This document shows positions 52,213 to 53,992 of a stretch of 64,000 nucleotides of DNA, one piece after another; position 1 is the stretch's first letter, and each line of letters begins with the position of its first letter. The translations under genes were made by a program, and so were the position numbers. The stretch comes from Luteolibacter sp. SL250 (GTDB lineage: Bacteria > Verrucomicrobiota > Verrucomicrobiia > Verrucomicrobiales > Akkermansiaceae). Below the pieces are notes generated by a model that did no database searches, was not told the DNA's origin, and was given only the letters and a program-made list of their open reading frames with translations. The DNA is taken from positions 1,054,001 through 1,118,000 of the forward strand of contig NZ_CP113054.1 in the NCBI RefSeq assembly GCF_026625605.1, written 5' to 3'.

Positions 52213-52301
52213 GGGTTCCGGCAATGATGGCATCCGTGACGATCATTGCGAGGAGCTTCTTTTCTGTCGAAATCACCCAGCCCATCGGCTTTCATGATGG
52301 C

Positions 52302-53222
52302 ATGTTCCAACGGCTGGAGATCAGGGACCGCAAGCTGGCTGAGACCGACGATGAAAACGCGCCGATCCTGCTCTGCACGGACCCGACGGAGGAGGAACGG
52401 GCCTTTCTGATCGATGGAGTCGGCATCGACCGCCACACCCTCGCCTCATCGCTCGACCCCAACGAACTCGGGCGGGTGGAATTCGAGCCGGATCACGCCG
52501 CGATCATCATCAAGCGGCCGAAGCAGTACTGCTCCGAGGACAACTTCTTCTTCAAGGTCAGCTCGGTTGGCATCTTCGTGTTCAGGGAGCGGTTGGTGTT
52601 CGTCGTGTCCGAGGAAGGGCTGCGTTTCGAGGGGAAACACTTCCAGCAGATCCGCAATCTGGACGATGTGATGCTGAAGGTGATCTTCCGCTGCGTCTGG
52701 CACTTCGAAGAGCACCTCAACGTCTTCAACATGATCGCGGAGGAACTGGAGCAGAAGGTGAACACCTCCATGGAAAACAAGCACCTGCTCCACATGTTCA
52801 CGCTGGAAAAGAGCCTCGTCTATTACCTCAACGCCATCGGCAGCAACGGCAGGGTCATCGAGCGGCTGAAAGCCTCCGTCAGCAGGCTGAGGCTCACCCC
52901 GGAGGATTGCGAGTTCCTTGATGACCTGACCATCGAGAACTCCCAGTGCCAGGAAATGGCGGCGACCTACAGCCAGGTGCTCTCCGGTCTGGTGGGGGCC
53001 AGGGTCAGCGTGGTCAGCAACAACCTGAACGTGACCATGAAGCGGCTCATGCTGGTGACCATCGGGCTGATGGTGCCGACCGCCATTTTCAGCATCTTCG
53101 GGATGAACGTGAGGCTTCCCGTCGTGGAGCACAGCGGGGCTTCCGGTTTCTGGATGATCCTCGCTCTCGCAGGAGCATCCGCCGGGGCGGTGTTCGTGGT
53201 CTCCCGATGGATGAAATGGTGA
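52302..53222 (+). CDS. CorA-type divalent cation transporter
   Basis: A protein of about 306 residues from ATG 52302; a longer frame from 52224 is possible. The layout is that of CorA: a large cytoplasmic N-terminal domain with a long helix (MLKVIFRCVWHFEEHLNVFNMIAEELEQKVN) and LEKSLVYYLNAIGSN. Two C-terminal helices follow, with the first ending in the signature FSIFGMNVRLP, where GMN is the selectivity motif. It should move magnesium or cobalt inward across the membrane. Its stop is just before the non-coding tandem element. Confidence 0.87.
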   Translation: MFQRLEIRDRKLAETDDENAPILLCTDPTEEERAFLIDGVGIDRHTLASSLDPNELGRVEFEPDHAAIIIKRPKQYCSEDNFFFKVSSVGIFVFRERLVFVVSEEGLRFEGKHFQQIRNLDDVMLKVIFRCVWHFEEHLNVFNMIAEELEQKVNTSMENKHLLHMFTLEKSLVYYLNAIGSNGRVIERLKASVSRLRLTPEDCEFLDDLTIENSQCQEMAATYSQVLSGLVGARVSVVSNNLNVTMKRLMLVTIGLMVPTAIFSIFGMNVRLPVVEHSGASGFWMILALAGASAGAVFVVSRWMKW

Positions 53223-53234
53223 CCCCGGCGGGTA

Positions 53235-53310
53235 ACGCACCCGCGTAGCCGCGATGGCGTAATGGCGGACGGGCCGGTTTTGTGCCAGTCTATCCCTGTC
53301 AGCGCGAACG
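53235..53310 (+). repeat. Leader copy 1 of a 189 bp tandem duplication
   Basis: This 76 bp segment matches 53424-53499 at 63 of 76 positions by hand count without gaps. The last 39 positions, starting GGCCGGTTTTGTG, differ at only three. No reading frame is preserved. It probably holds promoter or 5' RNA sequence for the C-tract element that follows. Confidence 0.85.
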
Positions 53311-53403
53311 GCCCCCGACGAAAGCGAAGACGCCCCCCCACACATCCCCCCGAAAGCAGATCGGCAGAAAGTCCCCCCGGCTTGTCTGCCGATTCGCTTT
53401 TCA
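53311..53403 (+). ncRNA. Putative C-tract small RNA, copy 1
   Basis: Four C tracts lie at 53312-53316, 53333-53339, 53346-53351 and 53373-53378. The last is in the loop of a long hairpin. The outer arms are 53353-53368 and 53385-53400, complementary except for two central positions, with an inner AAG/CTT extension. This leaves a nine-base apical loop TCCCCCCGG. TTTTC follows as a possible terminator tail. The structure is shared with copy 2 although the stems are different sequences. RNA function is inferred; strand plus is chosen from the terminator polarity. Confidence 0.6.
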
Positions 53404-53423
53404 GCGATGTCGTCCCGGAACCT

Positions 53424-53499
53424 ACGCGGGCACGTAGCCATGATGGCGTAATGTTGGAATGGCCGGTTTTGTGACAGTCTCTCCATGTCAGCGCGAACG
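53424..53499 (+). repeat. Leader copy 2 of a 189 bp tandem duplication
   Basis: Second copy of the segment at 53235-53310. It retains TAGCC, GATGGCGTAATG, GGCCGGTTTTGTG, CAGTCT and TGTCAGCGCGAACG. A short inverted pair TGACA/TGTCA is perfect here and imperfect in copy 1. Confidence 0.85.
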
Positions 53500-53605
53500 A
53501 CTTTCCCCCCCAACGTGAGCGCAGGGCTTGAACTCCCCCCGAACAGCCCCCCGGACAGAACCGGCGGATGAAGCCTCCCCCCCGGGCTCATCCGCCGGTT
53601 TGCTT
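53500..53605 (+). ncRNA. Putative C-tract small RNA, copy 2
   Basis: Four C tracts lie at 53505-53511, 53535-53540, 53547-53552 and 53577-53583. The terminal hairpin has perfect 13 bp arms (53559-53571 and 53588-53600), plus an inner GCC/GGC pairing and apical loop TCCCCCCCG. GGTTTGCTTTC closes it as a weak terminator, which also faces the convergent gene ending at 53606. Stem sequence differs from copy 1 while pairing and loop are kept, which supports selection on RNA structure. Confidence 0.6.
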
Positions 53606-53992
53606 TCAGGCTCCCAGCACGCGCCTGACCTCCGCGTGGGTGGCCAGCACGTGGGGATCCCGACGGAGTGTTTCCGCATAGGTGGTGCCGAAGCCACCGT
53701 CCTTCGCATCCGCTTCCAGCAGCGCGCGGATCTCGCCTATCAGGGCCTCCGCCCGTTCGTCCGTGATGGGCACCTTTTTGTCGAAAAGCGCGTCATCGAC
53801 CCGGGCGATCAGCCTGGTGAAGGGCTGCAGCCACTCGAACCATGGATCATGGGCGAGCAACTGGAGGAACGCCCCGGCGGACGGGATGGGTCCGGCGGCG
53901 TGTTCATACACCGCCCTTTCGGAGGTGATCAGTTCCCGGTGCAGTTTCAGCAGGCCGTTGCGTGCGGCCTTCAGTTTTTCGATGGAGTTCAT
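53606..53992 (-). CDS. Small helical protein of unknown function in the mhqOD-like operon
   Basis: A protein of 128 residues, rich in helix-forming residues and without signal or membrane segment: MNSIEKLKAARNGLLKLHRELITSERAVYEHAAG, FLQLLAHDPWFEWLQPFTRLIARVDDALFDKKVPI, ERAEALIGEIRALLE. No motif I recognise. Its ATG overlaps the end of the MhqD-like gene (GTTCATGA region), so it is probably translated with the two detoxification genes and may be a partner or stress protein. Confidence 0.75.
   Translation of the reverse strand: MNSIEKLKAARNGLLKLHRELITSERAVYEHAAGPIPSAGAFLQLLAHDPWFEWLQPFTRLIARVDDALFDKKVPITDERAEALIGEIRALLEADAKDGGFGTTYAETLRRDPHVLATHAEVRRVLGA

Follow-up and report, generated by a model that had tools for sequence, protein, structure and literature searches.

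Tandem C-tract elements of Luteolibacter sp. SL250: a putative multi-copy small RNA family and a candidate regulon under a shared promoter

The window analysed here, a stretch of 64,000 nt from the genome of Luteolibacter sp. SL250 (contig NZ_CP113054.1, positions 1,054,001 to 1,118,000), contains a CorA-type transporter gene (52224-53222, + strand, in window coordinates; Pfam PF01544, E 1.9e-32) followed by two similar elements in tandem, 189 nt apart (53246-53401 and 53435-53607, both on the + strand), each with several runs of cytosines. What might such elements encode, and what could the cytosine runs be for? An initial annotation had taken them for a structured RNA that binds many mRNA start regions, possibly linked to the transporter upstream. 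Judging from sequence comparison, the elements look like genes of a dispersed, multi-copy family of trans-acting small RNAs (sRNAs) in Luteolibacter and the Akkermansiaceae, here called hexa-C sRNAs, and we propose, with a probability of about 0.45 for the whole explanation including its mechanism, that these sRNAs may be multi-site decoys for a partner that binds C-tracts.

The tandem pair and the hexa-C family

We found the 76-bp leader to be repeated at an offset of 189 nt with 63 of 76 positions identical, as had been annotated; among as many as 2000 random pairs of 76-mers elsewhere in the window, the highest count of identical positions was 35. The four tracts of five to seven cytosines claimed for each copy were also confirmed, with lengths of C5, C7, C6 and C6 in copy 1 and C7, C6, C6 and C7 in copy 2, so that the two-copy region holds eight tracts of at least five cytosines (C5+), against a maximum of three C5+ or three G5+ runs in other 371-nt stretches of the window taken in steps of 10. 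In copy 1, a palindromic activator-type operator (53249-53260; family consensus ACGYGATCRCGT), recognised in an alignment of 44 promoters and centred at about -43.5 from the inferred start, precedes a putative extended -10 element, CAGTCT (53286-53291; family YANNNT, with an invariant A column in the alignment), which would place the start near 53298. The predicted sRNA of about 104 nt (53298-53401) matches covariance model R1 with E 2.0e-28 in its own genome, copy 1 being in the training set, and carries tract 1 (C5, 53312-53316) in its 5' part, tracts 2 (C7, 53333-53339) and 3 (C6, 53346-53351) in the linker, and tract 4 (C6, 53373-53378), by sequence and folding, in the apical loop of an intrinsic terminator hairpin with a U tail (53354-53401). 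Copy 2 has the corresponding parts, all likewise on the + strand: a palindromic operator (53438-53449) and a putative extended -10 element (53475-53480) with a start near 53487, both placed by sequence and the promoter alignment; a predicted sRNA of about 120 nt (53487-53607; R1 match with E 8.4e-25, copy 2 being in the training set); tracts of C7 (53505-53511), C6 (53535-53540), C6 (53547-53552) and, in the folded terminator apical loop, C7 (53577-53583); and an intrinsic terminator hairpin with a U tail (53558-53606).

Both hairpins are more stable than shuffled sequences (z -4.3 for copy 1 and -4.9 for copy 2), in keeping with the long terminator-like hairpins described initially; the nine-base loop assigned to them did not hold for copy 1, in whose minimum free energy fold the outer part of the supposed loop pairs and leaves an apical loop of 5 nt, while copy 2 folds into a 7-nt, all-C loop whose stem has 14 bp and, beyond a bulge, 4 bp more. 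The view that the stems had been rewritten with pairing kept is borne out by covariation across the family, and only the accompanying remark that they have almost no sequence in common was overstated, CGGC-GA being common to both. A 381-codon open frame also runs antisense over most of the CorA gene and both sRNA copies (52446-53591, - strand); it is most likely spurious, the DNA being GC-rich.

A DNA similarity search revealed eight similar places in the SL250 genome; across the genus, 61 genomes yielded 21 such places, located in seven of them. R1, trained on 18 of the first 21 copies, gave 21 matches in the SL250 genome at E<=0.1, which were sorted into 14 hexa-C sRNAs, one sRNA of a second type, five sites in the promoter or leader of an mRNA and one at the terminator that follows such a gene. 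Of the 211 genomes of the family Akkermansiaceae, 35 had matches at E<=0.001, some of these being mRNA leaders or the second sRNA; in the widest search, that of the order, 34 of 331 genomes matched at E<=1e-4 with stricter filters, representing two of 44 genera, both within one family. A promoter-pattern search among named records returned 16 stretches, all titled Luteolibacter, Akkermansiaceae or other Verrucomicrobiota. An R1 search of 100 loci listed 120 matches (L221-L229 were searched separately afterwards), and removal of three partial, overlapping or mRNA rows, seven mRNA leaders, one sRNA of the second type and four truncated copies left 105 copies from the 30 genomes examined, including 14 in SL250, 13 in G149 and seven in G145; G134 has one further copy beyond the 105. 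The tandem pair lies behind CorA in one close relative as well, G149, and the remaining 12 of the 14 SL250 copies are located away from CorA, so the suggested functional link to the transporter was dropped and the gene is regarded as a neighbour only.

Copies with compensatory changes were found in relatives. Among 119 distinct aligned matches, each of the ten terminator pairs in the model has changes at both of its positions, by a count that took all 120 rows, non-sRNA rows included, and that leans towards the model, the alignment having been fitted to R1. In the modelled stem 94.6% of cells pair, compared with 23-51% when the partner is slid by 1-3 columns, and double-change cells number 178 against a shuffled mean of 48; mean pairwise identity in the 18 nt before the terminator loop is 31%. 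When the tails were folded independently, the terminator loop held a C5+ tract in 90 of 105 copies, against 13% in dinucleotide shuffles, and tract 1 lay within an apical loop of its own in 72 of 96 copies tested, the other nine having no C5+ in their first 45 nt. Three or four C5+ tracts are present in 83 of the 105 copies, whereas two copies have none and three have one. The tracts themselves are uniform: 249 of 348 are exactly C6, 291 are preceded by T and 320 are followed by G or A, giving the consensus U-C6-R-A (purine-A after the cytosines), compared with 115 C6 and 278 T-preceded runs among the 634 C5+ runs of the SL250 genome as background. Their mean predicted probability of being unpaired is 0.89, against 0.34 for other cytosines. 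These comparisons strongly support selection of the stems for pairing and of the U-C6-R-A tracts for single-strandedness, with one tract in the terminator loop, and they agree with the original proposal of an RNA element under structural selection in Verrucomicrobia with C-rich loops; we infer that the hexa-C tracts are the working parts of the sRNAs. By sequence, the elements have the general features of trans-encoded sRNAs, namely a promoter of their own, an intrinsic terminator and a conserved structure.

A shared promoter and its candidate regulon

Alignment of 44 upstream regions revealed the palindrome, a TGGCCG block, the extended -10 element with its invariant A and, where transcription would begin, a conserved GTCAGCGCGA; no -35 box was seen in this alignment. 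The centre of the palindrome falls some 42.5-43.5 nt ahead of the inferred start, a spacing like that of class II activators, and we read the region as an activator-type promoter; that it is shared among the aligned genes is strongly supported by their sequences. The existence of the family and of its promoter we regard as almost certain.

A promoter-only model, R2, was run on the SL250 genome and on 12 relatives. It gave 26 matches in SL250 at E<=10, of which 20 had E<0.05, and 95 in the relatives under the stricter limit of E<=0.01. The protein genes matched include those for choice-of-anchor A and choice-of-anchor K PEP-CTERM proteins (relatives of the latter being recognised by eye), a MarR paralog, a small membrane-type protein and others. 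In addition, a second conserved sRNA (GUAAGGGAU...) lies behind the same promoter in 14 copies over 10 of the 13 genomes searched with R2, the SL250 copy (L042; C1:928104-928230, - strand; R1 and R2 match) being near a tRNA gene at L042:1734-1805 and the others at L292, L294-L299, L303, L306, L311, L312, L315 and L319. It consists of a 5' GUAAGGGAUAGCAC, a GCCC/GGGC mini-hairpin and a covarying terminator whose loop contains AAGGGA, has GGGAU at the loop and at the 5' end, and itself bears a C-tract; it was not found among the matches read in G145, G004 and G028, all of which have hexa-C sRNAs. The AAGGGAU loop had suggested a sponge for CsrA, an idea abandoned when no CsrA was found in six of six genomes. 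Sequences at L304 (G145), L307 (G050), L317 (G150) and L318 (G004) are also sRNA-like, with C-tracts, the same promoter and a different layout, those at L304 and L307 being similar to each other. On these promoter matches, the hexa-C sRNAs, the second sRNA and several mRNAs form a candidate regulon, with a putative activator in common.

Of the 22 mRNA units defined by the promoter, 17 have a C5+ tract within 45 nt of the ATG, a feature present in 47 of 787 sampled ordinary genes (12 of 274, 26 of 273 and 9 of 240 in the separate samples). The 22 units were hand-picked from R2 matches in 13 genomes, with sRNA-like hits, the ambiguous L321 and a few weak matches set aside; they are not independent, orthologues recurring among about 12 kinds of gene and some units being in the R2 training set, and of the 17 with tracts, 15 were flagged by script and two read from the script output. 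The tract is absent from five units, and of the eight that are not among the R1 matches listed, only four have it, R1-matched units being pre-selected for C-tracts. The distance from the end of the last tract to the ATG, taken in 21 tract-bearing units (16 of the 17, L300 being left out, plus five more MarR paralogs), is 0-6 nt in 20 of them. The 57 leader tracts, 42 of them preceded by U, are less sharply hexa-C than those of the sRNAs, comprising 29 C5 and 19 C6.

For example, the MarR paralog is present, at 88-100% identity to the query, in 8 of 211 genomes, and in all eight its gene has C6 directly before the ATG, in a leader ending in ATCCCCCCATG, and an R1 match at its start (L077, L212, L220, L228, L309, L324, L325 and L326). 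All eight genomes also hold a hexa-C sRNA copy, seven within the 105-copy set and G134 by a separate search, although their R1-positivity is partly circular, the leader itself matching R1. The paralog may itself regulate the regulon. Another MarR relative, of lower similarity, was tried as a marker and is present in 204 of 211 genomes; only the eight-genome paralog tracks the sRNAs. A gene for a membrane-type protein of 115 or 114 amino acids has about five leader C-tracts in SL250 (L045/L043; C1:2725369-2725894, - strand) and in G149 (L293), the SL250 locus having an extra C7 tract between the stop codon and the terminator.

The sequence TCCCCCCATGA occurs 10 times in the SL250 genome and its reversed control not at all, and eight of the ten sites begin open frames of 129 amino acids or more. 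Their products include, by Pfam or NCBIfam, the regulon's choice-of-anchor A protein, a RibD_C protein and a glycosyltransferase, whose gene is preceded by a palindrome as judged by eye; by eye only, DNA polymerase I, a FabV-like reductase and a glyoxalase-like protein; and one protein with a PEP-CTERM-like tail by eye matched neither Pfam nor NCBIfam. PEP-CTERM genes at large were rejected as the regulon: a PF07589 search of the 4.9-Mb SL250 genome gave 84 matches at E<=0.01, R2 matched one of 30 such loci, this being the known divergent promoter in L112, and 4 of 28 had C5+ no more than 45 nt from the first in-frame ATG.

Decoys, antisense RNAs and other readings

The C-tracts of the sRNAs and those of the leaders cannot base-pair with one another, and the tract that the sRNAs share with the co-regulated mRNAs suggests a common partner, which favours a decoy over antisense pairing to G-tracts. 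In the decoy model, a single transcription factor would activate the C-tract sRNAs together with the C-tract mRNAs (for PEP-CTERM surface proteins, the MarR paralog and others); a putative partner, either an RNA-binding protein or a G-rich RNA, would bind the C-tract beside the AUG of co-regulated and other mRNAs; and the hexa-C sRNAs would titrate this partner, freeing the start codons. That a single activator governs both hexa-C decoys and mRNAs with C-tracts at the start codon, which implies a so far undescribed bacterial factor recognising U-C(5-6)-R-A there, is a tentative proposal. Neither CsrA (PF02599; 3 of 14 control genomes positive) nor Hfq (PF17209; 5 of 14 control genomes positive) was found in six genomes, and no Shine-Dalgarno enrichment was seen upstream of 265 starts called by a simple caller in 400 kb of the SL250 genome (L078-L097), so that another rule of start-codon control may operate. 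Cytosine is strongly preferred at -1 (56%) and -2 (47%) of these called starts, and a comparison of where G- and C-runs lie relative to starts in 400-kb samples led nowhere. In a synonymous-shuffle test of coding sequence, G6 and C6 were depleted in sRNA-positive and sRNA-negative genomes alike, C6 at least as strongly in the sRNA-negative G018, and the depletion therefore lends no support to the decoy model.

The same sRNA family may act by direct antisense pairing of the hexa-C loops with G-rich sites of the U-Y-GGGGGG-A type near target starts, altering or blocking translation, a reading that we consider possible but somewhat doubtful. Antisense action is the established mechanism for sRNAs with C-rich loops, as described for sX13 with 4G motifs, B11 with a six-G tract and RepG with a G-repeat; the tracts are predicted to be unpaired, in loops; the Hfq-independent action reported for sX13 would agree with the negative Hfq searches; and T-G6-A runs are present in the SL250 genome, some inside genes. 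However, no enrichment of G5 or G6 runs was seen ahead of called starts, though a small set of targets would escape notice, tract length and flanks look more fixed than antisense seeds require, and the C-tracts at the AUG of co-regulated mRNAs are left unexplained. REP-like repeats around GTCGTGAGAC, were considered as sRNA targets and led nowhere; 464 kb of the SL250 genome (L085, L093, L094 and L096) has nine of them, three followed by G6-G7, and the 400-kb samples taken from G050 and G018 have none.

The presence of GGGAU in the second sRNA, and its promoter shared over 10 of 13 genomes, would fit a circuit of RNAs only, in which this sRNA pairs with AUCCC of the C-tract leaders and is sponged by the hexa-C sRNAs; the complementarity is just 4-5 bp, with GGG and not GGGGGG, and the C-tract on the second sRNA itself and the three genomes with hexa-C sRNAs in which it was not found among the matches read make such a circuit improbable. 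Action of the C-tracts on DNA or transcription, with RNA as a by-product, is less probable still. Several C-tracts per element could serve for Rho loading, an i-motif or a G-quadruplex on the opposite strand, and Rho prefers C-rich RNA, but the RNA stems covary with a tract held in the loop, the tracts in the window lie 7-25 nt apart with hairpins in between, and an intrinsic terminator is present. The multi-copy, dispersed and tandem occurrence would also suit a decayed mobile element or a repeat lacking RNA function; this we consider hardly credible, since it is contradicted by compensatory covariation across genomes and by the conserved promoter and loops, and neither a reading frame nor terminal repeats were noticed by eye in the copies read.

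Relation to known C-rich sRNAs

The cuckoo, CcsR or ar14 RNAs of alphaproteobacteria are tandem, multi-copy sRNAs with C-rich loops. The hexa-C sRNAs resemble them in these traits (on these RNAs see also PMC7143759). The kinship with CCUCCUCCC cuckoo RNAs that had been suggested was rejected, because this motif is present in none of the 105 copies and the best match to ar14 (RF02344), at one of 16 loci, scored 27 bits (E 0.26), far below the cut-off of 58.8. Indeed, no Rfam family reached its cut-off on the hexa-C sRNAs: Rfam 15 gave no match at E<=5 in the window between 50000 and 57000, 6C RNA (RF01066) included, and 16 family loci gave at E<=1 one tRNA and three sub-threshold matches, none of them to 6C RNA.

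The 6C RNA, or B11, reportedly acts 'independent of RNA chaperones', in the words of the title of Mai et al. 2019. In mycobacteria it has loops with cytosine strings and one target with a six-G tract in its 5' UTR (PMC10470900); the likeness of the loops is a resemblance and not homology. 6C RNA has two C loops and belongs to another phylum, and no Rfam match was found here. It is defined by two stem-loops with C-string loops; in the hexa-C sRNAs, a hairpin bearing a C-tract stands at each end (with tract 1 in a loop in 72 of 96 copies, and a tract in the terminator loop in 90 of 105), and there are linker tracts besides. RepG of Helicobacter pylori, whose C/U-rich terminator loop is the working part and binds the G-repeat of a single mRNA leader by base-pairing, is similar in its C-rich terminator loop, but is not described as a multi-copy family in the part of the source available (PMC8295292). 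In Xanthomonas, sX13 has several stem-loops with C4-C5 apical loops, is Hfq-independent, needs its C motifs for activity and acts on 4G motifs near starts (PMC3771888). The hexa-C sRNAs are like sX13, by its description, in having stem-loops with C-rich apical loops; they differ in that sX13 has C4/C5 loops on three stems and 4G targets, and the available part of its description mentions neither a multi-copy regulon nor C-tract leaders.

Literature listings (open-access PMC) yielded nothing on sRNAs of the Verrucomicrobia group. The sRNAs with C-rich loops are of a known kind, and the hexa-C family, its regulon and the link between C-tracts and start codons appear to be new. Two sRNA families supported by covariation, their shared promoter and a candidate regulon point to a layer of gene control in environmental Verrucomicrobia that has not yet been described. 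CsrB and RsmZ carry many copies of a motif of mRNA start regions on one sRNA, partly in hairpin loops, and the decoy model would share their logic in repeating a start-region motif on a single sRNA, with the difference that C6 takes the place of GGA and that CsrA was not found in the six genomes searched. If the decoy model is true, the hexa-C sRNAs would represent a C-tract counterpart of CsrA/CsrB in bacteria whose genomes, where searched, gave no match to CsrA or Hfq and whose sampled genes showed no Shine-Dalgarno signal.
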